From NCBI GenBank assembly GCA_017480345.1, contig JAFVAU010000001.1, positions 1 through 40,637 of the forward strand: DNA of 40,637 nt, in the 5' to 3' direction. The stretch is from Bacteroidales bacterium. GTDB taxonomy: Bacteria > Bacteroidota > Bacteroidia > Bacteroidales > UBA932. The translations under genes were made by a program, and so were the position numbers. Positions 1 through 40,637 of this stretch are shown piece by piece. Every line of letters starts with the position of its first letter. The first letter of the stretch is position 1. The notes below the pieces were generated by a model that was given only the letters and a program-made list of their open reading frames with translations, was not told where the DNA came from and did not search any database.

Positions 1-114
1 GCCTTCGGAATCGATATCCCTGAGGGATGCGCCCCGCTCTACCGATCCCGCAAGGCTCCCGCGAAGCGTCCAGGAAGGCCTAAGAAACCGAAGGCGGTGA
101 AACTGGAGAGTTAA
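1..114 (+). CDS. 3' end of a gene with a basic Pro/Lys/Arg tail (partial)
   Basis: The frame is open from the first base to a TAA at 112-114, leaving the last 37 residues of a protein that starts outside the window. The tail is rich in Lys, Arg and Pro and contains an AT-hook-like Arg-Pro-Gly-Arg-Pro-Lys-Lys stretch, which suggests nucleic-acid binding. It lies directly upstream of the phage-like cassette and may belong to it. Nothing upstream can be seen, so no function is assigned. Confidence 0.5.
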   Translation, partial: AFGIDIPEGCAPLYRSRKAPAKRPGRPKKPKAVKLES

Positions 115-308
115 TTGTACAAAAAATTGTAAAACTTACGTAAGTGAACGGGCAAGTCCCGGAATCCAATAAGTTCCTGTTCGCCCCTGTAAATTGCTGA
201 TAATGAGCGGGGGCGGACTTTTGGATATAATATAAGTGAGGGGCGGCACCTGGAAGCAGCCGCTGCCGAATGAGAAATATAGTTTAACAATTCTAAATCG
301 TAACTTTT

Positions 309-974
309 ATGCCTAAGAAGAAATCTAAGCAAAAGTACAAACCTCTAAGCGATGCCACGCCGGAGGAAATTCAGGAGGCCATGCAAATGGGCTCCTATTG
401 GCTGACCGATGAGTTGGAAGGCCATACTGAGAGCGGGGCATTCGCAGTACCATTCCTGCCGGAACCGGCCATTGAGTTTTTTCCCAAGAGAGCATACTTG
501 ACGCTGAGTTCGCCAGACTGCAAATGGAAATGGAAGGAAGGCACCAAGTTGAGTACGCTGTTCATCAACGTGATGCGAAGCGACATGGCTCACAAGCTGC
601 GCGAGTTTATTAATCAGGATAAGCCCAATGTGGCTGTAGGAAGCAGCTTTGAGCGCGACGACGCGAGCGAGGATGGATTTGATGACGCCAACGAAGTGCT
701 GGAAATTGATCCGGAAGACAGAAGGAATGGTTTCTCCGTGAAGCCGGAGATGGAATTGCTGGAAGAGCTGGAACGCGAAGAAGGCATCCGAGACAAAGGT
801 CTTAAGATTGCCCGGGCGGCAGCCAAGGCCAGCGGTGATGAGATGCTTGTGAAGTATGTGGAACTGGCGTTCTCGCTGCCCGACTACCGGGCCATCTCCA
901 AAAAGCTGAAGATTACCCAAGCGGAAGTGAGGGAATTGGAGGCGCGGTTGATAGCAATACTTTCAACCAAATAA
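309..974 (+). CDS. Possible sigma-70-like or HTH regulator of the phage-derived cassette
   Basis: A 221-residue protein with a Lys-rich N-terminus. Around residues 78-100 a segment (Thr-Lys-Leu-Ser-Thr-Leu-Phe followed by a basic helix) recalls sigma region 2. A very acidic linker spans about residues 113-140. The C-terminal 35 residues read as a helix-turn-helix (a short helix, then an Ile-Ser-Lys-Lys-Leu-like turn and a recognition helix), like region 4. There is no Cys or His metal site and no membrane segment. A TAACTTTT box touches the start codon, so the mRNA may have almost no leader. It is the first complete gene of the cassette, so a regulatory role is plausible. The sigma assignment is inference from pattern; a phage replication or small-terminase-like protein is an alternative. 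Confidence 0.4.
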   Translation: MPKKKSKQKYKPLSDATPEEIQEAMQMGSYWLTDELEGHTESGAFAVPFLPEPAIEFFPKRAYLTLSSPDCKWKWKEGTKLSTLFINVMRSDMAHKLREFINQDKPNVAVGSSFERDDASEDGFDDANEVLEIDPEDRRNGFSVKPEMELLEELEREEGIRDKGLKIARAAAKASGDEMLVKYVELAFSLPDYRAISKKLKITQAEVRELEARLIAILSTK

Positions 975-1032
975 TACTTAAAGATTTATTTAAATGGTAC
1001 CCAGGACCGTTCCTGGAATTAAAATTAAAGCA

Positions 1033-1194
1033 ATGGACTTATTAGAAAAGATTGACGAATTGAGAGCAAAAAGTGTTACACCCGAACGCTTCGAGAAGGT
1101 TTGGGGCATTAGCATCGACCAGCATCTTAAAAAGATGATGGAATTCGTCGAGCAGCAGAAGGCGATGGGTAATATCGTTGCGTCTGCGAAATAA
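1033..1194 (+). CDS. Small protein of unknown function (53 aa)
   Basis: The start at 1033 is preferred to the upstream in-frame ATG at 994 because the first 13 residues of the longer form are Pro-rich and compositionally unlike the rest. The 53-residue product is helical and charged, ending in an amphipathic helix and a short Val-Ala-Ser-Ala-Lys tail. It has no membrane segment or recognisable motif. It lies between the regulator-like gene and the lysis-like genes and is followed by a hairpin at 1246-1275. I do not recognise the family. Confidence 0.5.
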   Translation: MDLLEKIDELRAKSVTPERFEKVWGISIDQHLKKMMEFVEQQKAMGNIVASAK

Positions 1195-1245
1195 TGCAAA
1201 GTAAAGGTTAACGCCGGGTGAACCGGCAAAGTTCAAAATAGCTGT

Positions 1246-1275: not shown

Positions 1276-1343
1276 CTTTATCGGGCTAGGACCCGGATGA
1301 GGATTGAAAAATATGTGTAACAAAAAATATAGGAGAAAAGAAT

Positions 1344-2420: not shown

Positions 2421-2464
2421 TTAATTTATTATCAACATTTTTAAAGTAAAAGGAGAAAAAAATT

Positions 2465-3460
2465 ATGGGAAAGGCAACAGGACAGAGTAAGAATCTGAGG
2501 GGTAAGATTGGACAGATGATCTATTATCAGCGTAAGGACGGCACCACGGTGGTGTATGAGGCGAAGGAAAAGGCGGCAACGCCGGTGCGCACGGAGGCGC
2601 AGATGCAGATTCGCACGCAGTGGAGCAACCTGGGCGCGGTGTACACGCAGTTTCACAAGACGCTGAAGAAGGGCTTCGAGGGCCTGGAGGCGGGTCTGAG
2701 CGACTACAACGCGTTTATCCAGGCGAACGTGGGGGTGTGTAAGGTGTATATCCCGAAGTGGATCCGCCTGAACGGCGGCTGCGTGCTGGCGCCGTATCTG
2801 GTGACGAGGGGCAAGATGCCGAGCGTGGCGATGTCCCGCAGTGCGGGGGACGTGCTGGTGAGCAACATTGCGCTGGGGGCGCTGGTGATTGGTGACGGCA
2901 CTACGGTGGGCGAGCTGAGCGCGGCGGTGCTGGCGTACAACGCGACGTGGCAGGAGGGCGACCAGCTGACGTTCTTCTACGGTACGCAGGAGGTGGACGA
3001 GGTGACGGGCACGCCGCGTGCGCTGATCAGCGGCTGGAAGGTGGTGCTGGACGTGACGGACGAGACGGTGCTGTGGAACGTGGTGTCGCCGACGGGGTTC
3101 TCTTCGGTTGGCGGGTACCTGGGGATGGGCGTGGCCATCTCGAGCGCGGCGGCGGTGTGGGTGCATACCCGCGAGGGCGCCGGGAGCGACGTGCAGGTGA
3201 GTACGCAGTATCTGTATGTGGACAGCGCCATCCTGGAGAGCTATCAGAACGAGGCGGCGTTTGCTGCATCGGCCGCGAGCTACGGGGGAATTAACACGGA
3301 GGAGGCGTTTCTGGATCCGCGAAGTTCTGGGCGCAGCCGTGTTTCAGGTTCCAGTGGCTCCAGTGCTAGCGGCGGCCAGACGACCGAGGGCGGTGATGAC
3401 ACCGGTGATGACACCGGCGACGACGGTGGAAACGGCGGTGGAGGCATGGATCAGAACTAG
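2465..3460 (+). CDS. Phage-associated protein (DUF6266-like) with Asp/Gly-rich tail
   Basis: A 331-residue protein. Residues 1-60 follow a pattern I associate with a Bacteroidetes phage/prophage family (DUF6266 or a relative): a Gly-Lys-Ile-Gly turn, aromatic strand, Lys-rich stretch, then Pro-Val-Arg-Thr-Glu-Ala-Gln and Asn-Leu-Gly. The middle is beta-rich, low in Cys and rich in Gly, Val, Ala and Thr, as in virion or surface proteins. The last 45 residues are low complexity: Ser/Gly/Ala then repeated Asp-Asp-Thr-Gly-Asp and Gly runs. No signal peptide is present. The start has a strong AGGAG. It is the largest gene of the cassette and is followed by a hairpin. Whether it is structural, secreted or a release substrate cannot be told from sequence. 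Confidence 0.5.
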   Translation: MGKATGQSKNLRGKIGQMIYYQRKDGTTVVYEAKEKAATPVRTEAQMQIRTQWSNLGAVYTQFHKTLKKGFEGLEAGLSDYNAFIQANVGVCKVYIPKWIRLNGGCVLAPYLVTRGKMPSVAMSRSAGDVLVSNIALGALVIGDGTTVGELSAAVLAYNATWQEGDQLTFFYGTQEVDEVTGTPRALISGWKVVLDVTDETVLWNVVSPTGFSSVGGYLGMGVAISSAAAVWVHTREGAGSDVQVSTQYLYVDSAILESYQNEAAFAASAASYGGINTEEAFLDPRSSGRSRVSGSSGSSASGGQTTEGGDDTGDDTGDDGGNGGGGMDQN

Positions 3461-3478
3461 GGGCTGGTGAGGCCGTGA

Positions 3479-3518
3479 CAAGGGCTTCTGCCCGCAGAGA
3501 TGCGGGCGGAGGCCCTTG
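3479..3518 (+). terminator. Strong hairpin closing the phage-like cassette
   Basis: Arms of 18 bases (3479-3496 and 3501-3518) match at 16 positions, the other two being G-T pairs, around a GAGA tetraloop. No T tract follows, so termination efficiency is uncertain. The ends resemble the hairpin at 1246-1275. Confidence 0.5.
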
Positions 3519-3540
3519 ATGGCGCTCGCTGCTCCAAAAA

Positions 3541-3592
3541 TTGAAAATCTTGGGAATTTTGTATTGAAAATCTTGGGAATTTTGTATCTTTG
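3541..3592 (+). promoter_or_regulatory. Duplicated 23-bp unit and promoter of the ATPase gene
   Basis: A 23-base AT-rich unit occurs twice in perfect tandem (3541-3563 and 3564-3586). The second copy runs into a consensus -7 box TATCTTTG (3585-3592), with a TTG at 3564-3566 about 18 bases upstream as the -33 element. The first copy ends in TATTGAAA instead of a -7 box. The start codon is about 50 bases downstream. Confidence 0.65.
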
Positions 3593-3644
3593 CAACCGAA
3601 ATGTATAGTTCGGAACTGTGGAGTTCGGTCATAAATAAAAGAAT

Positions 3645-4964
3645 ATGAAGTTTTTCGATAGAGAAAATGAGATTAAAAAGTTGCGGGAAATAAAGGAAAT
3701 CTCGCAACAGGCTGCTCAGTTTACAGTGCTGACGGGTCGTAGGCGTATAGGTAAGACTTCGCTGGTGATGAAGGCGTATGAGAACGAAACAATTCTTTAT
3801 TTCTTCGTGACCAGGAGTACCGAAAGTGTGCTCTGCGAGGAGTTTGTGGAGGAATTGACATCTAAGTTGCAGATTCCCATCCTGGGAAAGGTGGAACGTT
3901 TCGCAGACATCTTTGACTATGTGATGGAGATGGCTAAGACCAGACCTCTGACACTGATGATTGACGAATTCCAGGACTTTAACAGGGTGAACAGCGCCAT
4001 ATTCTCTCAGATACAGAAGATATGGGACAAAAAGAAGGGAGATGCGAAGATTAACTTGATTGTGTGCGGCTCGGTGTATTCGATGATGACCAAACTGTTT
4101 CGCGACAAGAAGGAGCCTCTGTATGGAAGGCAGACGGAGTTTATGAAGATAGAGCCTTTTGCACCCTCAGTGGTTAAAGAGATTCTGTCGTACTATTATC
4201 CCGAATATAGTAAAGAGGATCTTCTGGCTTTATACACTTATACTGGCGGCGTGGCCAAGTATGTGGAGCTGTTGATTGATGCCGGAGCTACTACGGCAGC
4301 GAAGATGCTGGAACGTATCGTGGCCAAGAACTCGTATTTCATCTATGAGGGGAAGAACATGCTGATAGAGGAGTTCGGGCGCGACTACGGCCGCTATTTC
4401 GATATATTAAAACTTATAGCAACGGGTCATAATACCCGAGGTGACATAGAGGGTATTCTGCATGCGGAAGTGGGCGGCTATATGACCCGGTTGGAGAACG
4501 ACTATGGACTGATTGCTAAGAATAAGCCTATGTTCCAGAAGTCAGCCAACAAGAATATTGTATATGCGGTGAACGATTTGTTCTTGCAGTTCTGGTTCCG
4601 TTTTATCTACAAGTACACCTATTTCATAGAGGCGAATGCTTATAAGAAATTGGCTGAGATTGTGGAACGTGACTATGAGACATACAGCGGCAAGGTGCTG
4701 GAGCGGTATTTCAAGGAGGTGATGAAGGAGAGCGAGCAATATACTCACATCGACAGCTGGTGGGACCGCAAGGGCGAGAATGAGATTGACATTATAGCGG
4801 CAGACGATTTAGCGAAGAAGGTTACTTTTTACGAAGTGAAGCGTCAACGCGATGAGTTGGATATGAAGTTGCTGAAAGACAAGGTCCAGCGTTTTATGGA
4901 GTCAACCGGCGTGTATGGAAAATATGAGGTGGGGGTTGAAGGCTTGTGTATGGAGGATATGTAA
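3645..4964 (+). CDS. ATP-binding protein, ATPase_2 plus DUF234 nuclease-like domain
   Basis: A 439-residue P-loop ATPase of the ATPase_2/DUF234 class common in archaea and Bacteroidetes. The Walker A loop (Thr-Gly-Arg-Arg-Arg-Ile-Gly-Lys-Thr-Ser) is near residue 30 and Walker B (Leu-Met-Ile-Asp-Glu-Phe) near residue 105, followed by a sensor-like Cys-Gly-Ser. A winged-helix-like middle region precedes a C-terminal PD-(D/E)XK-like core: Glu-Asn-Glu-Ile-Asp-Ile-Ile, then Phe-Tyr-Glu-Val-Lys. Such proteins are often mobile and of unknown role; the nuclease-like end suggests DNA handling or defence. It has its own promoter, is AT-richer than the flanking core genes and lacks the GGCCGAT heptamer, suggesting recent acquisition. 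The length is normal for the family. The family is confident; cellular function is unknown. Confidence 0.85.
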   Translation: MKFFDRENEIKKLREIKEISQQAAQFTVLTGRRRIGKTSLVMKAYENETILYFFVTRSTESVLCEEFVEELTSKLQIPILGKVERFADIFDYVMEMAKTRPLTLMIDEFQDFNRVNSAIFSQIQKIWDKKKGDAKINLIVCGSVYSMMTKLFRDKKEPLYGRQTEFMKIEPFAPSVVKEILSYYYPEYSKEDLLALYTYTGGVAKYVELLIDAGATTAAKMLERIVAKNSYFIYEGKNMLIEEFGRDYGRYFDILKLIATGHNTRGDIEGILHAEVGGYMTRLENDYGLIAKNKPMFQKSANKNIVYAVNDLFLQFWFRFIYKYTYFIEANAYKKLAEIVERDYETYSGKVLERYFKEVMKESEQYTHIDSWWDRKGENEIDIIAADDLAKKVTFYEVKRQRDELDMKLLKDKVQRFMESTGVYGKYEVGVEGLCMEDM

Positions 4965-5002
4965 GTAGATTGAAAATTATCTAAAAAAATGTAGATATTT
5001 AA

Positions 5003-5116
5003 TGGGTATTCATATCGGCAAAGACCAACCCGGAAGACTTCAACAGGTTCCGTAAATTGGGTCTGAGTAACTTTGACTTGATGAAAACAGATTTTCTGGT
5101 ACGGTATTTCGATTAG
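5003..5116 (+). pseudogene. 3' remnant of an ATPase-like gene
   Basis: An open stretch of 37 codons with no start ends in TAG at 5114. It reads as a protein C-terminus (Ser-Ala-Lys-Thr-Asn-Pro-Glu-Asp-Phe-Asn-Arg-Phe-Arg, then a Leu-Val-Arg-Tyr-Phe-Asp end). A TAA at 5000-5002 precedes it. The 12 bases to the next start fit an operon in which an ATPase precedes a TOPRIM/DUF4276-like protein. The ATPase identity is inferred mainly from what follows. Confidence 0.4.
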
Positions 5117-5127
5117 GTGTGAGAGAT

Positions 5128-5184
5128 ATGAGGAAGGTTGCTGTATATGTAGAGGGGATGACGGAACTGGTTTTCGTCTATCAT
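5128..5184 (+). pseudogene. 5' remnant of a DUF4276/TOPRIM-like gene
   Basis: Nineteen codons beginning Met-Arg-Lys-Val-Ala-Val-Tyr-Val-Glu-Gly-Met-Thr-Glu match the start of DUF4276/OLD-type TOPRIM proteins, where Val-Glu-Gly-x-Thr-Glu carries the catalytic Glu. The likeness ends where a REP-like palindrome begins (about 5185), so the gene has been truncated. It follows an ATPase-like 3' remnant, as in two-gene ATPase plus TOPRIM defence modules. Confidence 0.5.
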
Positions 5185-5216
5185 TCCGTCATGCCCGGCT
5201 TTGTCCGGGCATCTCA
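5185..5216. repeat. REP-like palindrome (single)
   Basis: ATGCCCGG and CCGGGCAT form a perfect 8-bp stem with a six-base loop (5191-5212), in the context CGTCAT...ATCTC. It covers the stop codon of the DUF2442 gene and marks where the TOPRIM remnant breaks off. A paired version of the same element lies inside the alkD gene at 17525-17580. Confidence 0.65.
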
Positions 5217-5458
5217 GCCGGAACCCCTTGTTCGTAGAGGTATTCGGGCGCAAATCCAATCTCATTATTCCAATCGACAGTCCAGCCGTCGAGGGTAAAG
5301 TTGCGGAAGTATTCCGGATTCTGGAGTTTCGTGAAAATGCCCTTATCGTAGATACTGGAGAAGTCGAAAGTGCGCACATCACCATTGCTGAATGTGAGTT
5401 TCAGCAGGTAACCGGAGATATACTCGGCAGCGGTGACGTGTAAGAACTCTGTATTCAT
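5189..5458 (-). CDS. DUF2442 domain-containing protein
   Basis: An 89-residue protein starting at Met-Asn-Thr-Glu-Phe; the longer frame to 5527 crosses its own promoter and is rejected. The sequence follows the DUF2442 pattern: an N-terminal strand with Tyr-Leu-Leu-Lys-Leu-Thr-Phe-Ser-Asn-Gly, an Arg-Thr-Phe-Asp-Phe strand, a Phe-Thr-Lys-Leu-Gln segment and a Trp-Asn-Asn-Glu-Ile-Gly-Phe-Ala-Pro-Glu-Tyr-Leu-Tyr end. The last 12 residues (after Tyr-Glu-Gln-Gly-Val) are encoded by the REP-like palindrome and its edge, so the natural C-terminus may have been altered. DUF2442 proteins are small and often sit near toxin-antitoxin or mobile genes; the function is unknown. Confidence 0.8.
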   Translation of the reverse strand: MNTEFLHVTAAEYISGYLLKLTFSNGDVRTFDFSSIYDKGIFTKLQNPEYFRNFTLDGWTVDWNNEIGFAPEYLYEQGVPAEMPGQSRA

Positions 5459-5515
5459 TCGTTTACTCCAGGGGCTTAATTTTGTCAAACGGCTGGACTT
5501 GTGCCCTGAATAATG

Positions 5516-5546
5516 CAAAGATAGCAACTTCTTGGGACATCGGCAA
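5516..5546 (-). promoter_or_regulatory. Promoter of the DUF2442 gene
   Basis: On the minus strand the -7 box TATCTTTG lies at 5523-5516 and a TTG at 5546-5544, 20 bases apart. The predicted leader is about 50 bases. Confidence 0.6.
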
Positions 5547-5631
5547 ATTGGAGACGAATAATCAATTACGAACCCGGATTTGAGTATCTTGAGAATTTGC
5601 GCTAACTTAGTTTTCGGAATAATTGCATGGT

Positions 5632-6294
5632 ATGAAACAAGAAGAATTCATCATTTCGGGCAAAAGCTGTTGGCTCACCACGTTTGGGGAGCCGCGGGTA
5701 GTGCTGGTGGAGCCCATCGACTGCAACGACCTGGATTTCCTGGGGCGGGAGACGGATTACCTCATCGACAATGGCCTCACGGACTTCGCTTTAGCTACGT
5801 TCCTCATCGAGGATTGGAATGCGGAGCTAACCCCGTGGAAGGCGGCGCCGGTCTTTGGCAAGGAGCCTTTTGGCGATGGGGCCGGGAAGACCCTCAGGTT
5901 CATCACGGAAGAACTCCTTCCGCGCCTCCAAAGTCCCTCAAAGGTCATCCTTGGCGGCTACTCGCTATCGGCCCTCTTCGCGCTCTGGGCGGGCTATGAG
6001 ACCGACGTCTTCACCGCCATTGCCGCCGCATCTCCATCCGTCTGGTACCCCGGATGGATGGATTTTGCCAGGACGCATACCCCAATAGCCTCCAGAATCT
6101 ACCTCAGCCTCGGCGATGCAGAGGAAAAGACCCGCAACCGCGTCATGGCCACCGTGGGGGGCTGTATCGGGGAACAGGCGTCGCTCCTTGAGAGACAAGG
6201 CATCGAAACCACCCTCGAATGGAATCCCGGTAATCATTTCAAGGAGGCCGATATCCGCACGGCTAAAGCCTTTCTCTGGGCGGCAGGGGTCTGA
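5632..6294 (+). CDS. Putative esterase, alpha/beta hydrolase fold
   Basis: A 220-residue cytoplasmic alpha/beta hydrolase. The nucleophile elbow Gly-Tyr-Ser-Leu-Ser is near residue 109, a Leu-Gly-Asp-Ala candidate acid near residue 161, and the catalytic His in Asn-Pro-Gly-Asn-His-Phe near residue 201. The substrate is unknown; the fold resembles the Esterase D-like/PF00756 group. The ATG at 5632 is used; a TTG nine bases upstream is in frame but less likely. The last about 40 codons are repeated at 15821-15959 with roughly 90% identity, and the stop codon is followed within four bases by a fragment of a peroxiredoxin gene. This is therefore the left copy of a rearranged esterase-GNAT-peroxiredoxin locus, and its final two residues differ from the probable ancestral end. 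Confidence 0.75.
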   Translation: MKQEEFIISGKSCWLTTFGEPRVVLVEPIDCNDLDFLGRETDYLIDNGLTDFALATFLIEDWNAELTPWKAAPVFGKEPFGDGAGKTLRFITEELLPRLQSPSKVILGGYSLSALFALWAGYETDVFTAIAAASPSVWYPGWMDFARTHTPIASRIYLSLGDAEEKTRNRVMATVGGCIGEQASLLERQGIETTLEWNPGNHFKEADIRTAKAFLWAAGV

Positions 6295-6298
6295 ACAA

Positions 6299-6452: not shown

Positions 6453-6544
6453 GGTGCTCCTACCGGTCCATCGATCTGTACCTCTATGTGCAAAAATGGC
6501 CGATTTTGACGATACTCTGCCGGGTGCGTGGACCGGTATGTGCA
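6453..6544. repeat. 92-bp repeat, copy A
   Basis: Matches copy B at 9299-9390 over the full 92 bases at about 85%, in the same orientation. Both have outer inverted arms (ACCGGTCCA...TGGACCGGT), a central AAAAATGGCCGATTTT core, and a short direct repeat (ATGTGCA twice here, TGCGCA twice in copy B). No coding potential is seen. The two copies bracket the frameshifted genes, orphan operon and hipB block. Confidence 0.8.
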
Positions 6545-6550
6545 ACCATA

Positions 6551-6762
6551 TTATGCGCAGAAGTAGACTACCCGAACCTTGCTGAAATCGAAGGTGTCAC
6601 TGCTGAGGAAGCAATTGTGTTTTATAAGATCTTGATGGCCGCTTCGACACCGGCCATGGTAATCGGTGTGCCGGACTTTATCGGCACGTAGCGGAAATCG
6701 TCCAGCGGCTGCGAGCCGATATAGACCTGGTCTGGGCTGAAGGATGGTAGGGGGTTGGACAT
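6551..6762 (-). pseudogene. Small orphan gene, frameshifted
   Basis: From the ATG at 6762 the frame reads 46 residues (Met-Ser-Asn-Pro-Leu-Pro-Ser-Phe..., with Gly-Val-Glu-Ala-Ala-Ile-Lys-Ile-Leu near the end) and stops at 6622. The next frame continues with good coding character (Ser-Ser-Asp-Thr-Phe-Asp-Phe-Ser-Lys-Val-Arg-Val-Val-Tyr-Phe) to a stop at 6551, so a single-base indel is likely. The leader (a near-consensus GATATTTG box, A-run, then GCT before ATG) is almost the same as that of the gene at 8048. The family is not recognised. Confidence 0.45.
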
Positions 6763-6880
6763 AGCGTTCTTTTTTTTGCAAATATCGTCTTTGACTGTGG
6801 CGTAGCATAAGTACTTCAGTTACAAATGAGCAACTGCGTGTTGCCTGGGAACTGTTCTTTGGCCCATGGTTTTGTCCCTT

Positions 6881-7158
6881 TCACTCATGTGCTGTTTCTA
6901 CCAGATAGTCATAGAATGCATCAATGTCACTTACGTTGTATTCCTTCTCGTCAATCCAGTATTTCGCCTCTCCTTTGGGAGCTTGTTCCATCCACCATTC
7001 CAGTTCATCATCGATACCCAGCCTGTTGAATTCCAGGTTGAACAGGAGGCAGAATGCATATCTTAGATTTTAAACGCTTCATTTACTTTGTCTTCTTTCT
7101 CCTGGGCATTCTGTATGAATGTCATAAGCTCTTTGAATTGTTCTCGGGTAGGCATCAT
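6881..7158 (-). pseudogene. Small orphan gene, frameshifted (phage/Prevotella-type small protein)
   Basis: The frame from 7158 gives 31 residues (Met-Met-Pro-Thr-Arg-Glu-Gln-Phe-Lys-Glu-Leu-Met...) and stops at 7063. A second frame continues at once with convincing protein sequence: Leu-Gly-Ile-Asp-Asp-Glu-Leu-Glu-Trp-Trp-Met-Glu, then Val-Ser-Asp-Ile-Asp-Ala-Phe-Tyr-Asp-Tyr-Leu-Val-Glu at the end. The joined length, about 92 residues, and the Gly-Ile-Asp-Asp-Glu...Tyr-Asp-Tyr-Leu-Val pattern match a small protein family seen in Bacteroidales accessory DNA. It follows the 197-aa gene by 14 bases and was probably the third gene of that operon. Confidence 0.6.
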
Positions 7159-7172
7159 AGCATTGATGGTAT

Positions 7173-7766
7173 TCAGTCCGTTACGTTGTCTTCGACTATA
7201 TACTTTTCGTTCAGATAGGTGCGGTGGAATCCGCTGGGGACCCGGTCTATGGGGATTTTCGCTCTTTCGTACAGTATCCTCCCTTCGCGGTTGTATGCCG
7301 GGACCCAGGTGTCGATATAGGGGATGACGGATTCTTTTCCTTCATAGCGGATCCGGCATTTCTTGTGGCAGGAGGGGAGGAAGTAGGAGGCGAGTTCGTC
7401 CCAGCCCAGATAGTCATCAATTGAATCATACGCGTGGAACCAGGTATTCTCCTGAGGCTTTTTCTCCGTGCGGTAAGAGATGTTGCCATCAGCAGCGACT
7501 ACAACCTGTATGTGGCTGTACTCCTTGATCTTGTCTTCCGTGTCCAGGCTGTTTTCGGTGATGAACCGAAGGAAAAGGTCCAGGGGGCTGTGGGTCTTCT
7601 CGATGTCCCTGGGAACATCGAAGAAGAAGGATTGCCAGCGGAGGTGGTCGGCCAGTTCGCGGCGAATGTCCAGGGCCATAAACTCTTTTCTTTCGGGAGG
7701 GAGGACCTCGTTGGAATAGGACATAATGTCCTCGCAGTGGGAGGCGGCGTAGGAATGGCGTCCCAT
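7173..7766 (-). CDS. Hypothetical protein in orphan operon (197 aa)
   Basis: A soluble 197-residue protein, acidic and aromatic-rich, with no signal peptide or membrane segment. Notable parts are an N-terminal helix around Arg-Arg-Glu-Leu-Ala-Asp-His-Leu-Arg-Trp, an Asp-Tyr-Leu-Gly-Trp-Asp-Glu-Leu segment, a His-Lys-Lys-Cys-Arg-Ile-Arg-Tyr strand and a C-terminal Phe-His-Arg-Thr-Tyr-Leu. An internal Met at residue 15 could be the true start. It begins three bases after the stop of the 92-aa gene, so the two are one operon under the palindrome-bearing promoter at 8065-8121. I do not recognise the family. Its neighbourhood (hipB, frameshifted orphans) suggests a mobile or toxin-antitoxin-type accessory role. 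Confidence 0.6.
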   Translation of the reverse strand: MGRHSYAASHCEDIMSYSNEVLPPERKEFMALDIRRELADHLRWQSFFFDVPRDIEKTHSPLDLFLRFITENSLDTEDKIKEYSHIQVVVAADGNISYRTEKKPQENTWFHAYDSIDDYLGWDELASYFLPSCHKKCRIRYEGKESVIPYIDTWVPAYNREGRILYERAKIPIDRVPSGFHRTYLNEKYIVEDNVTD

Positions 7767-7769
7767 GGC

Positions 7770-8048
7770 TTAATTACGCGACAACCAGATGAGATCGTTT
7801 TCCCGGTATCGATCCCGAAGGTCTACGATGTCCTTGATTTTCTTGCGTTTGAGGAAGTCCGCGAAGGCAGCGGCAAGTGCGTGGAATTCTTCTGTGTCGA
7901 ATTCGATGTCCCGGAACATACGGTAGCGCTCTGCTGAGCTCAGGTTGGTGCGGCCGGCATATTCCGTGATGCCTATTGCGTATCGGTAAGACATCCAGGA
8001 AAGGGACTCTTTGTACATATCGTCGTCGCGTTTGATTCGTTTCGCCAT
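7770..8048 (-). CDS. Hypothetical protein, first gene of orphan operon (92 aa)
   Basis: The start at 8048 (Met-Ala-Lys-Arg-Ile-Lys-Arg-Asp-Asp-Asp) lies 16 bases after the -7 box; the longer frame to 8171 would cross the promoter and the palindrome. The 92-residue product is helical, highly charged and soluble, with an Ala-Glu-Arg-Tyr-Arg-Met-Phe-Arg-Asp segment and a Lys-Arg-Lys-Lys-Ile-Lys-Asp-Ile-Val stretch. It could be a small toxin-antitoxin-like or DNA-binding protein, but no motif decides. It is one of three small genes in the window whose promoter carries the CAAATCTTTGCAA palindrome. Confidence 0.6.
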   Translation of the reverse strand: MAKRIKRDDDMYKESLSWMSYRYAIGITEYAGRTNLSSAERYRMFRDIEFDTEEFHALAAAFADFLKRKKIKDIVDLRDRYRENDLIWLSRN

Positions 8049-8064
8049 AGCGGTGCTTTTTTTG

Positions 8065-8121
8065 CAAAGGTAGCTGCTCTTGAGTCGGCCGGCAAATCTT
8101 TGCAAGGTTTGCAATGATTTG
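8065..8121 (-). promoter_or_regulatory. Promoter and palindromic operator of the 92-aa/197-aa operon
   Basis: The -7 box TACCTTTG reads on the minus strand at 8072-8065. About 20 bases upstream, 13-base inverted arms with one mismatch (8093-8105 and 8109-8121, spacer GGT) cover the -33 position. The arms match those at 9222-9252 and 16896-16928. This is the degenerate member of the family. Confidence 0.7.
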
Positions 8122-8183
8122 GGAATCTGGAAAATAATACAGGGAAGGTCACCCTGCGCAAAAGATTGCAAGATATTTGTCGC

Positions 8184-8221
8184 AATAATAGTTGAATATT
8201 GAACTATTATTCGTACATTTG
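8184..8221 (+). promoter_or_regulatory. hipB promoter with autoregulatory-type operator
   Basis: Perfect 10-base inverted arms AATAATAGTT (8184-8193) and AACTATTATT (8202-8211) surround the -33 TTG at 8192-8194, and the -7 box TACATTTG follows at 8214-8221. A palindrome overlapping the promoter is the usual arrangement for HipB-type autorepression. It is unrelated to the CAAATCTTTGCAA family next to it. Confidence 0.7.
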
Positions 8222-8249
8222 CCTTGTAAAAGCTTAATATAAGACCTTT

Positions 8250-8582
8250 ATGGAAGATATTTACATGCTATCCGATGCCATGATCCTCACGAAGATAGGT
8301 GAGCGTCTGAAGGCGTTGCGGCTAAAGCAGAATATCACGCAGCAGAATCTGGCGAAGGAGGCAGGTGTGTCGTTGTCATCAATAAAAAAAATAGAGAAAG
8401 GGGAGATTGGATCATTTGATTCGCTCCTGCGGGTACTGCGGACGTTGGGCAAACTGGATGTGCTGCTGCCGCTGGTGGAAGAAGAACAGTTGAGTCCTAG
8501 TCAGTACTACGAATGGGTACAGAAGGCCGGCGCTCATCAGCGCAAGCGGGCGGCTGGACGTCGCAACACCAGATGTCGGTAA
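8250..8582 (+). CDS. hipB: HipB-like XRE-family antitoxin
   Basis: A 110-residue protein with an XRE helix-turn-helix at about residues 15-70 (Ile-Gly-Glu-Arg-Leu-Lys-Ala-Leu-Arg, then Asn-Leu-Ala-Lys-Glu-Ala-Gly-Val-Ser and Ile-Lys-Lys-Ile-Glu-Lys-Gly-Glu). The C-terminal part has the Pro-Leu-Val-Glu-Glu-Glu-Gln-Leu-Ser-Pro stretch typical of Bacteroidales HipB. The last residues (after Lys-Arg-Ala-Ala-Gly) are probably altered, since the reading frame runs into the deletion that removed most of hipA. It should bind the palindrome in its own promoter. With hipA gone it can no longer act as a toxin partner and may survive as a stand-alone repressor. Confidence 0.8.
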   Translation: MEDIYMLSDAMILTKIGERLKALRLKQNITQQNLAKEAGVSLSSIKKIEKGEIGSFDSLLRVLRTLGKLDVLLPLVEEEQLSPSQYYEWVQKAGAHQRKRAAGRRNTRCR

Positions 8583-8779
8583 ATGGCAAGTTCGACGATA
8601 TTACCCGGGCAGACTTACTCTCGTTTGCTTCGGCTAATGGAATCAAGGATGCTGCGGAGGTAATTGATCAGGTGTTTAATGCCGTAGCCAGTTGGCCGGA
8701 GCTGGCCCGCGAAGTGGGTGTTCCGGAGGAGATGATTAAGGGCATTGCGGGGAATATGCAGTTGGGCGCTCGGCAGTAG
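8573..8779 (+). pseudogene. hipA 3' remnant
   Basis: About 68 codons in a different frame from hipB match the C-terminal end of HipA kinases: Met-Ser-Val-Asn-Gly-Lys-Phe-Asp-Asp-Ile-Thr-Arg-Ala-Asp-Leu, then a helical region ending Ile-Lys-Gly-Ile-Ala-Gly-Asn-Met. The N-terminal domain and kinase core of the roughly 300-430-residue protein are absent. The remnant overlaps the last codons of hipB, so one internal deletion explains both. Confidence 0.75.
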
Positions 8780-8819
8780 GAATCCTTCTCATATAGACGT
8801 TAGTTCCCATATTTTCCGT

Positions 8820-9170
8820 TTATTTTGTAAGAACCCATGGCTCATCGTCGGTGTAGCCATAATTACGTAAGAGGTAGAGTATCCGCCGTTTGCGGTTGGT
8901 ATAGTCGATAGTGGTATCCTTCAAGATGTCCATCGCCTTGAGGAATTCTTTGCGTGGGATGGGGACGAAGTCAGCCAGATGGCCTGGGGTGATGCTGGCC
9001 ATCGGGAAGACGGACATAGATACGGAGTCTTTTCCAAGGACATGCCATCGGACTTTACATATCTCACGGGTGCCGATGACCTCTTCCACCTCCAGTACTT
9101 CCAGAAGAATTGGATCCATGCCGCGGAGTTCCCGCCGCTGCCAGAATGTGTCGTGCGCTTTTATTGCCAT
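8820..9170 (-). CDS. Hypothetical protein with palindrome-controlled promoter (116 aa)
   Basis: A 116-residue soluble protein with beta-rich middle (Cys-Lys-Val-Arg-Trp-His-Val-Leu-Gly, Val-Ser-Met-Ser-Val-Phe-Pro) and a C-terminal helical, Arg/Tyr-rich part. There is no signal peptide, membrane segment or known catalytic motif. The start at Met-Ala-Ile-Lys lies 25 bases after the -7 box. It is monocistronic, between the hipA remnant and the second 92-bp repeat. The function is unknown; the shared palindrome ties its regulation to the genes at 8048 and 17041. Confidence 0.6.
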   Translation of the reverse strand: MAIKAHDTFWQRRELRGMDPILLEVLEVEEVIGTREICKVRWHVLGKDSVSMSVFPMASITPGHLADFVPIPRKEFLKAMDILKDTTIDYTNRKRRILYLLRNYGYTDDEPWVLTK

Positions 9171-9255
9171 AGTCTTATGACGTTTGTTTTTTTACAAAGG
9201 TAGGCCTGCTGAGGGTCGATTCCAAATCTTTGCAAACCTTGCAAAGATTTGGAAT
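9171..9255 (-). promoter_or_regulatory. Promoter and perfect palindromic operator of the 116-aa gene
   Basis: The -7 box TACCTTTG reads on the minus strand at 9202-9195. A perfect palindrome with 14-base core arms CCAAATCTTTGCAA (9222-9235) and their complement (9239-9252) around the spacer ACC extends three more bases on each side (9219-9255), covering the -33 position. The gene-free stretch 9171-9486 holds only this operator, the second 92-bp repeat and the jetA promoter. Confidence 0.75.
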
Positions 9256-9298
9256 TGAGCGGGACAATAATATGGAATCGGTTACTTCAGGCCTACTC

Positions 9299-9390
9299 GG
9301 TGCTCCTACCGGTCCATCAGCCTGTACCCCTATGCGCAAAAATGGCCGATTTTGACGCTACCCTGCAAGGGGTATGGACCGGTGTGCGCA
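9299..9390. repeat. 92-bp repeat, copy B
   Basis: Second copy of the element at 6453-6544, same length and orientation. Outer arms ACCGGTCCAT and ATGGACCGGT are a perfect 10-bp inverted repeat, and an inner TACCCCT/AGGGGTA pair exists only in this copy. It ends about 30 bases before the jetA promoter. Confidence 0.8.
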
Positions 9391-10686: not shown

Positions 10687-11237
10687 TAAAGACCAAAGAG
10701 ATATTCGAGCTCCTTTCCCGGGGAGGGTTCATCAGCCAGGACAGCACCCGGGCCGATGTCCGCCGCCTCTATGACTATATAGAGGAGAACTTCGACGAGT
10801 ATAAGGCCTATTACCAGGGCATCGGTTTTGTGCTGGAGCAAGGGAACGGCTACTTCCATTTCTCCAGAGAGGACTCCCGCACGGAACTTACCCGGCGGCT
10901 CACTACCCTGGGCGTATGGATAGACCGCCTGGATTTTGTGAAAACCTTCCATAGCGGCTTTTCTACCGGCGTCCGCTTTACGCCATCGGCCATTACCGAG
11001 GCCATATCGGCCGATGTGGAATTGAAGGAAAAGGCCCGTAAGCTCTATCCAGGGCAGCACAGTGCCAAGGATACGGTGCAGATGCTCGTGGACGATATGG
11101 AAAAAGCGGGATTTATCGAACTGGAGAATGAATTTGAACAGGTTTACAAGGTGACATCGGCCTTCCATTTTTTGGAGGGACTGGTGGAAATGCTCACAAT
11201 CAGCGAGGAGGAGGCCAGCGATGAGACAGCTCAGTAA
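10683..11237 (+). CDS. jetB: Wadjet JetB-like accessory subunit (MukE-like)
   Basis: A 184-residue protein made of winged-helix-like segments: an N-terminal helix Thr-Lys-Glu-Ile-Phe-Glu-Leu-Leu-Ser-Arg-Gly-Gly, a Gly-Tyr-Phe-His-Phe-Ser-Arg strand near residue 57, and a C-terminal Met-Glu-Lys-Ala-Gly-Phe-Ile-Glu helix-strand. This is the size and layout of JetB/MukE-type kite subunits, which bind the kleisin. Its start overlaps the jetA stop and its last 17 bases overlap jetC. The assignment relies on operon position and size as well as fold impression. Confidence 0.75.
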   Translation: MIKTKEIFELLSRGGFISQDSTRADVRRLYDYIEENFDEYKAYYQGIGFVLEQGNGYFHFSREDSRTELTRRLTTLGVWIDRLDFVKTFHSGFSTGVRFTPSAITEAISADVELKEKARKLYPGQHSAKDTVQMLVDDMEKAGFIELENEFEQVYKVTSAFHFLEGLVEMLTISEEEASDETAQ

Positions 11238-35548: not shown

Positions 35549-35557
35549 AATTCCGGA

Positions 35558-35606
35558 CAAAGATACAAAAAACCTTTGCAGAAATGTGCAAAAAATGCTA
35601 TATTTG
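35558..35606. promoter_or_regulatory. Divergent promoters of ygiQ and tex
   Basis: Minus strand: TATCTTTG at 35565-35558, nine bases before the ygiQ ATG. Plus strand: TTG at 35576-35578, 20 bases, TATATTTG at 35599-35606, only five bases before the tex ATG, so the tex mRNA is probably leaderless. Confidence 0.7.
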
Positions 35607-35611
35607 AGACT

Positions 35612-37741
35612 ATGAAAGATTTATATGTAAAATACATAGCCTCCCTGCTCAATATCCAGCCCTGGCAGGTGGAAAACTGCGCAGAGCTCTTTGCAGAGGG
35701 TTGCACCATCCCGTTCATCAGCCGTTACCGCAAGGAACGCACGTGCGGCCTCACGGACGTGGAAGTGGCGGAAATAAAGCATTGGGCCGATGTCTTCCAG
35801 GAAATGGACAAGAGAAAAACTTCCATCCTCGGAACCATCGAGGAGCAGGGAAAACTGACGTCGGAACTCAAGGAAGCCATCGAGAAATGCGTCAGCTCCA
35901 GCGAGTTGGAGGATCTGTACCTGCCGTATCGGCCTAAACGGAAAACGCGCGCCACGGCGGCCGTTGCCAAAGGACTGGAGCCGCTGGCAGACCTTCTTTG
36001 GAACAACAAGTCCCGTAATCCCAAGGCCGATGCCGCCCCCTTCGTGAAGGGAGAGGTGGCCTCGGTGGAGGAAGCCCTGCAGGGCGCGCGGGATATCCTG
36101 GCGGAGCGTATCAGCGAGGATGCCCATAACCGGGAAACCCTCCGCGGCATCTACCGTACGCGCCGGGTGTGCTCCAAGGTGACCAAGGCCGGCCAGGACA
36201 GCCCGGACGCCGCCAAGTATCGCAGCTATTTCTCCTTCTCGCAGCCCATCTCCAAAATCCCTTCCCACAACCTGCTGGCCATGCTCCGCGCGGCGGACGA
36301 AGGCTTCGTGAAGGTGGAGATAGACGCGGACGGGGAGAAGTGCTCCAACAAGCTTTACTATGACTATTGCCAGGCCCACGGCTATCCTTCCCACCAGGAG
36401 GTGCGGGCGGCCGTGGAAGATTCCTGGAAGCGCCTGATGGACCCTTCCATTACCGGCGAGGTGTTGAGGGAGGCCAAGGAAAAGGCCGATGTGGAGAGCA
36501 TCCAGGTGTTCGGGGAGAACCTCCGGCAGCTGCTGCTGGCTCCGCCGGTGGGGCAGAAGCGGGTGATGGCCATAGACCCGGGTTTCCGCACGGGCTGCAA
36601 GGTGGTGTGCCTGGACCGGCAGGGCAATCTGCTCTCGCACGATGTCATCTACCCCCATCCGCCGGTGGCCAAGAAGATGGACGCCATCATCAAGGTGGCC
36701 GATTGGGTGGACAAATACAAGATTGAAGTGATTGCCATAGGCAGCGGTACGGCCGGCCGGGAGACGGAGGAGTTCGTGCGGAAGGTGGGCCTGCCCGACG
36801 AGGTGCGCATCTTCTCCGTGAGCGAGGACGGCGCCTCCGTGTATTCCGCCTCCGAGGTGGGCCGGGAAGAGTTCCCGGAGTACGACGTCACCGTGCGCGG
36901 GGCGGTTTCCATCGGCCGGCGGCTCATGGACCCGCTGGCGGAGCTGGTGAAGATAGACCCCAAGTCGCTTGGCGTGGGGCAATACCAGCACGACGTGGAC
37001 CAGGGCCTCCTGAAAGAGAAGCTGGACAATACCGTGGAAAGCTGTGTGAACAGCGTGGGCGTGAACCTGAATACCGCCAGCCCGTATCTGCTGCGCTATG
37101 TGAGCGGGATAGGCCCGGCGCTCTCCAAGGCCATTGCCGATTACCGCAGCGCCCATGGGGAATTCAAGAGCCGGGAAGAGCTCAAGAAAGTGCCCCGCCT
37201 GGGAGACAAGGCCTTCCAGCAGTGCGCCGGCTTCCTCCGCATCAGCGGGGCGGCCAACCCGCTGGACAATTCCGCCGTGCATCCGGAAGCCTATCACATT
37301 GTGGACAAAATGGCCAGGAAGCTGGGGATGAGCACCCGGGAACTGGTGGGCAATGCCGATGCCTGCAAGAAAATCAACGCGCAGGACTTCGTGGAGAAGG
37401 ACTTCGGCCTTCCCACGGTGAACGACATCATCCTGGAACTGCAGAAGCCCGGGCGGGATCCCCGGGAACAGGCCCAGGAGTTCTCCTTCGCGGAGGATAT
37501 CCATGAAATTGACGACCTCAAGCCGGGGATGGAACTGCCCGGCATCGTGACCAACCTGACGGCTTTCGGGGCGTTCGTGGATGTGGGTCTTCATGAGAAC
37601 GGGCTCATCCATGCCTCCCAGATGGGCGTAAGGGGGATGGCCGTTCCCTCGAAGGTATTGAAACTGCATCAACATATTATGGTTCAGGTGCTTAGCGTGG
37701 ACCTGGAAAGAAACCGCATAGGATTAAGACTGATAAAATGA
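35612..37741 (+). CDS. tex: Tex family RNA-binding transcription protein
   Basis: A 709-residue cytoplasmic protein of the Tex/Spt6-like family. In order: Tex N-terminal helical domain (about 1-190), YqgF/RuvX-like RNase H fold (Val-Met-Ala-Ile-Asp-Pro-Gly-Phe-Arg-Thr-Gly near 320), helix-hairpin-helix repeats (Leu-Asn-Thr-Ala-Ser-Pro and Ile-Gly-Pro-Ala-Leu near 485-500), and a C-terminal S1 domain (Gly-Ile-Val-Thr-Asn-Leu-Thr-Ala-Phe-Gly-Ala-Phe-Val-Asp-Val near 640). Length and domains are complete. The start at 35612 fits the promoter; the upstream frame would begin before transcription. Its stop overlaps the GH97 start by four bases. Confidence 0.95.
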   Translation: MKDLYVKYIASLLNIQPWQVENCAELFAEGCTIPFISRYRKERTCGLTDVEVAEIKHWADVFQEMDKRKTSILGTIEEQGKLTSELKEAIEKCVSSSELEDLYLPYRPKRKTRATAAVAKGLEPLADLLWNNKSRNPKADAAPFVKGEVASVEEALQGARDILAERISEDAHNRETLRGIYRTRRVCSKVTKAGQDSPDAAKYRSYFSFSQPISKIPSHNLLAMLRAADEGFVKVEIDADGEKCSNKLYYDYCQAHGYPSHQEVRAAVEDSWKRLMDPSITGEVLREAKEKADVESIQVFGENLRQLLLAPPVGQKRVMAIDPGFRTGCKVVCLDRQGNLLSHDVIYPHPPVAKKMDAIIKVADWVDKYKIEVIAIGSGTAGRETEEFVRKVGLPDEVRIFSVSEDGASVYSASEVGREEFPEYDVTVRGAVSIGRRLMDPLAELVKIDPKSLGVGQYQHDVDQGLLKEKLDNTVESCVNSVGVNLNTASPYLLRYVSGIGPALSKAIADYRSAHGEFKSREELKKVPRLGDKAFQQCAGFLRISGAANPLDNSAVHPEAYHIVDKMARKLGMSTRELVGNADACKKINAQDFVEKDFGLPTVNDIILELQKPGRDPREQAQEFSFAEDIHEIDDLKPGMELPGIVTNLTAFGAFVDVGLHENGLIHASQMGVRGMAVPSKVLKLHQHIMVQVLSVDLERNRIGLRLIK

Positions 37742-39693: not shown

Positions 39694-40408
39694 GACGGAT
39701 CTTGCGGAAGCGGAGGCCCAGAACGCCCCAGAAGGCTTCCCCGAAGATACCACCGCTCATTTTGGAGGTGCCCTTTTGTCTGTTGGTAAAGACAATGGGC
39801 ACTTCTTTTATCCGGAAGCCCAGTTTGTGGGCGCTGTACTTCATCTCTATCTGGAAGCCGTAGCCCTTCATCTTGACGGCATCCAGGTTCATGGTTTCCA
39901 GCACCTTGCGGGTGTAGCAGACGAAGCCGGCGGTGGTGTCATAAACATGGAAGCGAAGGACGCCCCGCACATAGGCCGATGCGAAATAGCTCATCACGAT
40001 GCGGCTCATGGGCCAGTCAATCACGCTGACGCCGTTGCAGTAGCGGGAACCTACGGCCAGATCCGCCCCCTGCTTGGCGCAGGCCTCGTACAGGCGGAGA
40101 AGGTCCTGGGGGTTGTGGGAGAAATCGGCATCCATTTCGAAGATGTAGTCATATCCCTTTTCCAGGGCCCATTCGAAGCCCTTCAGGTAGGCCGTGCCCA
40201 GTCCCAGCTTGCCGCTGCGCTCTATCAGGTGCAGCTTTTCCGGGGCCGATTGCTGGAGCTCCTTCACGATGGCGGCGGTTCCGTCGGGGGAACCGTCGTC
40301 TATGGTGAGGACGTGGAATTCTCCGGGGAGGGAAAATACGGCGGAGATGATTTCGCGGATATTCTCCTTCTCATTGTAGGTAGGAATAATGACTAACTTT
40401 TTTTCCAT
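39683..40408 (-). CDS. Polyprenol monophosphomannose synthase-like glycosyltransferase (GT2)
   Basis: A 241-residue GT-A glycosyltransferase related to Dpm1. Pro-Thr-Tyr-Asn-Glu-Lys-Glu-Asn is at residues 9-16, Asp-Asp-Gly-Ser-Pro-Asp-Gly-Thr near 37, the metal-binding Asp-Ala-Asp-Phe-Ser-His near 94, and Gly-Tyr-Gly-Phe-Gln-Ile-Glu-Met near 183. There is no C-terminal membrane anchor, as in the short bacterial forms. It would transfer mannose (or another sugar) from a nucleotide sugar to polyprenyl phosphate. A TAACTTTG box (40420-40413) ends four bases before the ATG, so the mRNA may be leaderless. Confidence 0.92.
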   Translation of the reverse strand: MEKKLVIIPTYNEKENIREIISAVFSLPGEFHVLTIDDGSPDGTAAIVKELQQSAPEKLHLIERSGKLGLGTAYLKGFEWALEKGYDYIFEMDADFSHNPQDLLRLYEACAKQGADLAVGSRYCNGVSVIDWPMSRIVMSYFASAYVRGVLRFHVYDTTAGFVCYTRKVLETMNLDAVKMKGYGFQIEMKYSAHKLGFRIKEVPIVFTNRQKGTSKMSGGIFGEAFWGVLGLRFRKIRPKA

Positions 40409-40502
40409 TCTTCAAAGTTAAAGGTTTTTCCTGAATAATATCTTCTCTTGCCATGAAAAAATGGTGCCAATGAAAAAAAGTTGAAAAAAATCTCGAAAAA
40501 AG

Positions 40503-40533
40503 TTTGTCAGTTCAAAAATAGTTGCTACCTTTG
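40503..40533 (+). promoter_or_regulatory. Perfect-consensus strong promoter, probably of an rRNA operon
   Basis: TTTG (40503-40506), 19 bases, TACCTTTG (40526-40533): the best promoter match in the window, in an A-rich upstream region (40439-40502). What follows is a non-coding leader, not a start codon. Confidence 0.7.
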
Positions 40534-40637
40534 CAGTCCCGCTTGAGAAACGAGCGGGATTTTTACACCAAAAAGCTCATTGAAAAGACTGAAAGGAAGT
40601 ACAAGCAAGTACCGGAAATTGTAACAACAATTTCAGA
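40534..40637 (+). other. Leader with 5' hairpin, likely upstream of 16S rRNA
   Basis: The expected transcript begins with a stem TCCCGCT/AGCGGGA (40537-40543 and 40553-40559) followed by five T, an intrinsic-terminator-like or attenuator structure. The rest (40565-40637) is A-rich and non-coding and resembles, from memory, Bacteroidales 16S rRNA leaders. The rRNA gene itself would lie beyond the window edge. Confidence 0.5.

Follow-up and report, generated by a model that had tools for sequence, protein, structure and literature searches.

The heptamer GGCCGAT is enriched across the genome of a Bacteroidales bacterium, at the level of the DNA and irrespective of orientation; it is scarce in acquired DNA, is retained in place among relatives, is distributed by clade and gives way to related words (dialects) in sister species. 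Its many copies, their retention, their scarcity in acquired DNA and the related words in sister species make it probable that something in these cells reads GGCCGAT as a mark of self-DNA. Our main reading, to which we assign a probability of roughly 0.4, is that GGCCGAT is the self-DNA signature of a Bacteroidales clade, which would be read by a vertically inherited protein or complex and favoured in uptake or recombination.

Enrichment and distribution in the genome

The window, i.e., the whole stretch of 40,637 nucleotides that was analysed, contains 72 copies by exact count, the first and last lying at 2111 and 40250 (39 as GGCCGAT and 33 as ATCGGCC on the plus strand), while 100 dinucleotide shuffles gave 8.6 +/- 3.4 copies and none of the 100 reached 72. 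The earlier note had counted 65-70 copies by eye and estimated a roughly ten-fold over-representation, which agrees with these values. Under dinucleotide models the excess amounts to 8.4-fold in the window, where GGCCGAT is the most enriched heptamer, and to 5.9-fold in 400 kb sampled from this assembly, where it was also the top heptamer in a second-order model (474 versus 83.5 expected). Maximal-order Markov models were not taken as null, because such models absorb GGCCGAT into its sub-words. The 2.22-Mb assembly carries 3333 copies (1664/1669 by strand), i.e., about one per 650 bp. The idea of a genome-wide signal, against which a lack of enrichment in the rest of the genome had been named as counter-evidence, is borne out by this whole-genome count, by null models preserving codons and protein, which are exceeded, and by the comparison of related genomes; the enrichment spans the assembly. 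The host of the motif is a Bacteroidales of gut or rumen. GGCCGAT itself is asymmetric, and two overlapping inverted copies form the palindrome ATCGGCCGAT, which was found at 61 places among the 3333 heptamers of the whole assembly versus 0 for the reversed control. Both palindromes noticed before in the window were confirmed, at 11006-11015 and 25677-25686.

Sites are missing from two blocks of the window, 3275-5966, which includes a gene with Pfam matches to ATPase_2/DUF234 (3645-4964), and 6505-9343, the putative hipB block of the earlier note, in agreement with the gaps at 3.3-5.9 kb and 6.5-9.3 kb described there. The description of the jetABCD genes as dense in sites applies to part of them: the MksE-like and DUF3584 genes on the plus strand (10683-14877), the latter encoding what we take to be a MukB/JetC-like protein, carry 5 and 8 sites, whereas the flanking genes (9487-10686 and 14964-15746) have 0. 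Further plus-strand genes with sites are an AddB-like gene with PDDEXK_1 at its C-terminus, presumably AddB (22184-25018; 9 sites), and the Tex gene (35576-37741; 6 sites). Native DNA has a density of 1.54 per kb versus 0.51 per kb in acquired DNA, the latter set consisting of one 120-kb island and the first 9.3 kb of the window only, which fits the proposed use of GGCCGAT as a marker of native DNA. The island carries conjugation and polysaccharide genes; ten of its proteins were scanned, yielding one TraG ATPase and two members of polysaccharide families.

Codon usage

It was suggested before that the motif alters codon choice, and this is what the codon counts show: after GCC, aspartate is encoded by GAT 265 times and by GAC 149 times, elsewhere 1324 and 3689 times, respectively, and 22.6% of all TCG codons lie inside the motif. 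The reverse causation, that codon or codon-pair usage produces the excess, draws on the commonest phase being xxG-GCC-GAT with GCC as a common codon; its probability is negligible. Genes contain 526 sites (sense 266, antisense 260), of which shuffles preserving protein and neighbours account for 113-125, so that under the corrected models, named earlier as a possible refutation, the excess drops to 4.2-4.7-fold and does not vanish. The enrichment is strongest in codon-unfavourable phases, such as Ser-Ala (146 versus 6-13.5) and Gly-Arg with the rare codon CGA (24 versus 2.2-2.5), and native intergenic DNA is enriched as well (13 versus 2 expected). Codon and dipeptide use as the full explanation was thus ruled out by two shuffles.

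Clade distribution and dialects

At least 2000 copies of GGCCGAT were found in 41 of 400 genomes of the genus. As PF00562 (RpoB) gave no match in the window's assembly, Tex and AddB were chosen as markers, Tex for the genus tree and AddB for fetching and placing 80 relatives. On the AddB tree, GGCCGAT or one of its dialects TGCCGAT and KGCCGAA was found in 33 of the 37 rows of one clade, a second clade is characterised by KGAATAT, and a single GGCCGAT row (L143) falls outside the main clade; the dialect labels track the tree with 13 changes versus 31.9 in shuffles. All four words begin with K-G and have A as their sixth base. TGCCGAT reaches 72 copies versus 17 expected in genome G284, and KGAATAT 229 versus 95 in G293, being raised in all six phases, which again argues against codon usage. 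The type of G104 and G377, GCCGATG with mostly G or T before it, is a less sharply defined dialect. The G/T difference between GGCCGAT and TGCCGAT is soft. In alignments of GGCCGAT species to TGCCGAT species, summed over pairs that share species and are not independent, TGCCGAT stood at 18 of 110 sites, GGCCGAT at 15 and one of the 20 remaining single-base variants at 12.

More than 1000 copies in a whole genome are not in themselves proof of the motif, as seen for G095, with 1436 copies and yet 23 versus 15 in 60 kb under the codon model. In G100, G180, G263 and G367, about 20 kb of each being examined, GGCCGAT did not rank among the top words, and about 120 kb each of G128, G016 and G150 contained no comparable enriched word. 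CAGCAGG, CATCGAC, CTACAA and ATATAT were considered as dialects of low species and dropped, their enrichment having shrunk under the codon model. Among the matches listed in a literature search of open-licence PMC papers, no such motif was described for Bacteroidales or Cryptobacteroides.

Retention and turnover of sites

In species pairs that were pooled, share species and are thus not independent, GGCCGAT was kept in place at 345 of 627 sites versus 149.9 expected, i.e., 2.3 times the prediction from codon conservation. Among 12 control heptamers, 11 had retention ratios of 0.28-1.20 and TGCCGAT had 1.67. The dialects give an uneven picture: KGCCGAA sites of L121 were kept as KGCCGAA or GGCCGAT in 7/42, 6/43 and 7/42 cases (all heptamers: 0.24-0.26), and KGAATAT was kept at 14/25 sites in L150/L159 and 1/14 in L154/L166. 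Between the window and L095, one outgroup polarised 6 losses and 1 gain and left 2 differences unresolved; these numbers are too small to settle the balance, but they do not suggest net gain.

These data bear on the possibility that GGCCGAT is written, without function, as a by-product of mutation or biased repair, e.g., by Vsr-like repair or gene conversion. Near-misses such as GGCCGAC are kept below expectation (18/116 versus 34.6), as if such sites were converted. However, the differences among kin, mostly unpolarised, hit several positions (G1A, C4T, A6G, T7C, C3G, G5C) and include transitions and transversions rather than one mismatch class, and the retention above expectation and the variation of dialects by clade likewise make a mere by-product quite improbable.

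Strand, spacing and candidate functions

No strand skew was detected within three sampled contigs (99/94, 63/71, 75/72) and the window (39/33), with a chi-square of 9.6 on 20 df; the test was done within contigs. This argues against a polar use in segregation, one of the functions proposed earlier, or as Chi, and GGCCGAT was rejected as a polar signal. KOPS and AIMS segregation signals are polar; GGCCGAT resembles them in its genome-wide over-representation and differs in not being polar within contigs. Most known Chi sites point in the same direction as replication. A Chi-like signal, at which AddAB would change its activity and thereby promote repair of self over foreign DNA, nevertheless shares several features with GGCCGAT, as both are short asymmetric words in excess in native DNA, the motif is poor in acquired DNA, and the window, like 80 relatives, has an AddB-like gene. 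Besides the near 50:50 strand distribution, it speaks against Chi that AddB is also found where the motif is absent, the enrichment varying among AddB-carrying relatives, and that none of the AddB columns follows the G/T dialect, itself a soft difference. The two KGCCGAA rows are matched by two columns, and 53 set the distant KGAATAT clade apart. On these columns AddB was rejected as the reader, and we regard a Chi function as unlikely. The same degree of doubt applies to a chromosome-organising site, in which an abundant sequence-specific nucleoid protein would bind the heptamer either way and need dense coverage. The density, the absence of polarity, the coding and intergenic sites and the clade-wise distribution would suit such a protein, as would a short-range preference for opposite-facing neighbours, which we treat as suggestive, because only this part points the same way in relatives: at 8-200 bp, 35 neighbours in G000 genes face the same and 73 the opposite way (60 shuffles together: 156:190), and the pooled relatives show 76 and 117. 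Over all distances the effect in G000 (193 same strand, 282 opposite, p 5e-5) does not recur in the pooled relatives (366 and 382), the spacing is Poisson (dispersion index 1.00) rather than even, and no candidate protein is known.

On a further reading, GGCCGAT would be a methylation-linked word like the iterated HIP1 of cyanobacteria, made and kept by mismatch repair together with an orphan DNA methyltransferase. In many m6A targets an A is placed like that at position 6 of the four dialects. HIP1 and alternate HIPs accompany cognate methyltransferases and, like GGCCGAT, occur at about one copy per kb with other words in some relatives (PMC4390886). In the motif-rich genomes, in contrast, none of five Pfam methyltransferase families is common to all 18 (assemblies 80-97% complete): matches over cut-off were obtained for PF01555 in 2, PF07669 in 9 (borderline in G428), PF02384 in 5, PF02086 in 4 and PF00145 in 6, and G153, G179, G249 and G395 had none in any family. 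The window's own assembly has a single match, PF07669 in a 512-aa frame. GGCCGAT, unlike HIP1, is also not palindromic. With none of these five families shared, an origin by methyltransferase was set aside as very improbable.

A proposed self-DNA signature

In its behaviour GGCCGAT comes closest to a DNA uptake sequence. The DUS of Neisseriaceae and the USS of Pasteurellaceae are likewise present thousands of times in about 2 Mb, in both orientations, are poor in acquired DNA, and vary as dialects around a common core, in step with the species tree. Known uptake sequences are longer than seven bases, the length of GGCCGAT, and the host here belongs to Bacteroidota, not Proteobacteria. The Neisseriaceae DUS comprise eight dialects with a common three-base core that follow phylogeny (PMC3630211), which the common K-G start and A6 of the four words recall. 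Against an uptake role, the spacing of the sites is random, as given above, and an orientation-specific bias at gene ends, as reported for known uptake sequences (PMC2346458), was looked for and not seen. The type IV pilus/T2S ATPase (PF00437) exceeded the cut-off in 0/18 motif-rich genomes and in 3/38 overall, so that uptake by type IV pili was rejected. ComEC was matched in 37/38 genomes, with an open frame of only 320-480 aa in 33/37, and does not discriminate, being found with or without the motif; no receptor gene was found. Within Bacteroidota, preference for own DNA in transformation is reported for Riemerella columbina (PMC7965970), transformation by unusual machinery for R. anatipestifer (PMC8459023) and natural competence for Porphyromonas gingivalis (PMC11532111).

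For the self-DNA signature, we propose that a single vertically inherited DNA-binding protein or complex would recognise the heptamer in double-stranded DNA, whichever way it faces, and that DNA bearing it would be favoured, most likely when conspecific DNA is taken up or recombined. Sites would then accumulate and persist genome-wide, newly acquired elements would lack them, and drift in the specificity of the reader would shift the sites to a related dialect. The data do not distinguish an uptake function from a different use in recombination or from a role in the nucleoid.

Few groups of bacteria are known to have iterated self-DNA words that vary as dialects. With slightly less than even odds, a large uncultured genus, by inference Cryptobacteroides, would possess a self-DNA code in dialects and a vertically inherited reader protein without type IV pili or a shared methyltransferase. 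This would be either a chromosome-wide recognition signal of a new class or an uptake-sequence system, to our knowledge the first one outside Proteobacteria. The motif occurs in a gut and rumen genus that is rich in species and represented by hundreds of genomes, which allows a search for the putative reader by contrasting the dialects of different species. GGCCGAT can be used to flag acquired DNA in these assemblies, and it could reveal whether uncultured Bacteroidales are shaped by sequence-specific recombination or exchange of DNA.

Genome-Wide Excess of GGCCGAT and Its Scarcity in Acquired DNA

GGCCGAT is the top heptamer of the window, with 72 copies on both strands versus 8.6 in dinucleotide shuffles, which bears out the roughly ten-fold over-representation claimed in an earlier note. 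The genome-wide signal proposed there was recovered as well: the source assembly (G000; 2.22 Mb in 46 contigs, 91% complete) carries 1664 + 1669 copies compared to 117 + 157 of the reversed control, and the palindrome ATCGGCCGAT occurs 61 times while its reversed control is absent (0). GGCCGAT also ranks first among heptamers in 400 kb sampled from three G000 contigs (474 versus 83.5), and its counts per 2-kb bin are Poisson-distributed (index 1.00). The decamer ATCTTTGCAA, present in 7 copies in the window versus 0.1 expected, resembles the Bacteroidetes -7 promoter element TAnnTTTG. The RNA polymerase beta subunit (PF00562) was not found in the 91%-complete assembly.

GGCCGAT marks native DNA. 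Its density is 0.51/kb in positions 40-160 kb of contig C28 together with the first 9.3 kb of the window, versus 1.54/kb elsewhere, and the site-free blocks noticed earlier in the window are exact by site positions. Ten island proteins were scanned, yielding one TraG-type conjugation ATPase and two members of polysaccharide families. The GGCCGAT-poor stretch of C28 spans approximately 110 kb (~45-155 kb, pieces L007-L012), has mostly lower GC and encodes a TraG-type conjugation ATPase, a Wzz/tyrosine-kinase-like protein and a glycosyltransferase; it was read as a conjugative element and/or polysaccharide locus.

A Signal at the DNA Level

Genes were called from the 400 kb and the window by a simple codon-score caller made for this analysis. 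They contain 526 GGCCGAT sites, compared to 113 +/- 9 after synonymous codons are permuted inside each gene and 125 +/- 10 after a shuffle that holds amino acids and neighbouring bases fixed. The sites are divided into 266 sense and 260 antisense, and enrichment is clear in four of six phases including costly ones, such as the Ser-Ala phase using TCG-GCC (146 versus 6-13.5 expected) and the Gly-Arg phase using the rare CGA (24 versus 2.2-2.5); the two remaining phases hold few sites and are little enriched (sense phase 1: 4 versus 2-5; antisense phase 1: 10 versus 4-6). Along genes, enrichment reaches its minimum in the final fifth, for either orientation. Native intergenic DNA (21 kb, some segments of which are perhaps missed genes) has 13 sites versus 2 expected. 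Of the 21 heptamers that differ from GGCCGAT by one base, TGCCGAT alone shows a clear rise in G000 under the codon-corrected null (97 versus 50). GGCCGAT is a signal at the DNA level.

A polar signal was rejected, as strand counts per 20 kb show no skew within contigs (chi-square 9.6, 20 degrees of freedom). Neighbouring sites 8-200 bp apart in G000 genes favour opposite orientations (35 same, 73 opposite; 156 and 190 in 60 shuffles together), and pooled relatives show a similar tendency (76 and 117), which is absent over all distances. In the G000 sample (L005-L024) words containing GATC are strongly depleted under a second-order model (GGATC/GATCC 409 versus 1192; CGATC/GATCG 167 versus 568 expected), and CATATG is under-represented in the G000 sample (60 versus 286).

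Distribution, Inheritance and Maintenance

The genus is probably Cryptobacteroides, judged from the titles of named relatives retrieved with the AddB-like protein of the window: most of the best 80 of 589 bear the title of a Bacteroidales or Bacteroidia assembly, many originate from the rumen or gut, and three are Candidatus Cryptobacteroides. GGCCGAT was counted in 400 same-genus genomes, including G000, taken from a larger group. At least 1000 copies were found in 74 and at least 2000 in 41, with a maximum of 4066 (G153); in the others the number lies between 18 and 998. In GC-rich genomes, 1000-1700 copies make the signal look stronger than it is, as for G095, whose 1436 copies give 23 versus 15 under the codon model. 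GGCCGAT is outside the top words in 20-kb samples of G100, G180, G263 and G367. Most of 32 genomes that belong to other families within the order lie near their reversed control. The exceptions include G065 (474 versus 34 reversed controls) and G076 (1192 versus 264), read as independent excesses, and G057 (2 versus 507), read as near-total avoidance.

Quick trees with open forks were built from Tex and the AddB-like protein. Across the 45 species of the Tex tree, GGCCGAT at four-fold control or more, a label carried by 11 species including weak GC-rich cases, needs 4 changes versus 10.1 in shuffles. The AddB tree (81 rows, one short, L140; labelled by codon-corrected counts) has a fully supported 37-row clade, in which 26 rows are labelled GGCCGAT, 5 TGCCGAT and 2 KGCCGAA, and 4 have no label. 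A further GGCCGAT row (L143) sits apart from this clade on a long branch. KGAATAT labels three rows of a distinct clade of five, in which the remaining two tend in the same direction without reaching the threshold. Seventeen of 20 further species sampled were scorable for these dialects. TGCCGAT is clear in G284 (72 versus 17) and G088 (38 versus 11), G104 and G377 prefer GCCGATG, preceded mostly by G or T, G140 is mixed, and G035, G089, G095, G101, G116, G123, G192 and G234 show little or no signal. KGAATAT in G293 (229 versus 95) is raised in all six phases, and no comparable word was found in G128, G016 and G150. GGCCGAT, TGCCGAT, KGCCGAA and KGAATAT all have K-G as their first two bases and A as their sixth. 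ATATAT/TATATA is over-represented under a dinucleotide model in G031 and G038 (L067, L068; 44 ATATAT versus 2.6 in 13.7 kb of G031), an excess much smaller in genes under the codon model (19 versus 8.9).

In 14 species pairs compared in both directions, whose overlap in species leaves the pooled figure without a simple error estimate, 345 of 627 aligned GGCCGAT sites are retained versus 149.9 expected from codon-by-codon conservation. Eleven of 12 control heptamers have retention ratios of 0.28-1.20 and TGCCGAT 1.67; KGAATAT varies by pair (14/25 in L150/L159, 1/14 in L154/L166). Summed over seven reverse comparisons of GGCCGAT with TGCCGAT species (110 sites), TGCCGAT stands at 18 and GGCCGAT at 15, while the other 20 one-base neighbours together reach 12; the dialect swap is therefore the commonest single change. 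This pattern does not hold for KGCCGAA in L121, where KGCCGAA/GGCCGAT is at the place of 7/42 (L137), 6/43 (L120) and 7/42 (L142) sites and 0.24-0.26 of all heptamers are retained. Single-base changes between the window and L095, polarised by outgroup L097, comprise 6 losses, 1 gain and 2 ambiguous cases, too few to judge balance, and give no evidence of net gain.

Candidate Functions

A use resembling DNA uptake sequences is tentatively favoured, at a rough probability of 0.4, because the motif is frequent in either orientation, rare in acquired DNA, retained in place between species and distributed by clade, with dialects around a core. Uptake sequences of Neisseriaceae, described with such a pattern (PMC3630211), are alike in density, lack of orientation and clade-wise dialects sharing a core. 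Among Bacteroidota, reports describe transformation of R. anatipestifer with unusual machinery (PMC8459023), competence of P. gingivalis (PMC11532111) and a preference of R. columbina for its own DNA, the words counted there being A/T-rich (PMC7965970). Against uptake count the missing ATPase and the short ComEC frames: the type II/IV secretion ATPase family exceeds the cut-off in 0/18 motif-rich genomes and 3/38 overall, and ComEC is matched in 37/38 genomes, 33 of which carry it in an open frame of 320-480 aa (Competence domain protein; L290-L303); the frames are longer in G220 (496 aa), G342 (588), G128 (778) and G185 (781). The three genomes with the ATPase are the motif-poor G131, G016 and G342; the other 35 have no match above the cut-off.

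A Chi-like role is unlikely, and reading of the motif by an organising protein is doubtful to the same degree. Less probable still would be a by-product of repair. A link to methylation is very improbable: five Pfam methyltransferase families were searched in 18 motif-rich genomes (1864-4066 copies), and a common enzyme was rejected, as no family is shared by all, matches over cut-off being patchy (PF01555 in 2, PF07669 in 9, PF02384 in 5, PF02086 in 4, PF00145 in 6) and G153, G179, G249 and G395 (87-92% complete) having none of the five. Among the results listed from open-licence literature, none described a motif like this in the group. A signal of this kind is already known; new are its occurrence with no pilus ATPase and no common methyltransferase, its seven-base form and the lineage that carries it.
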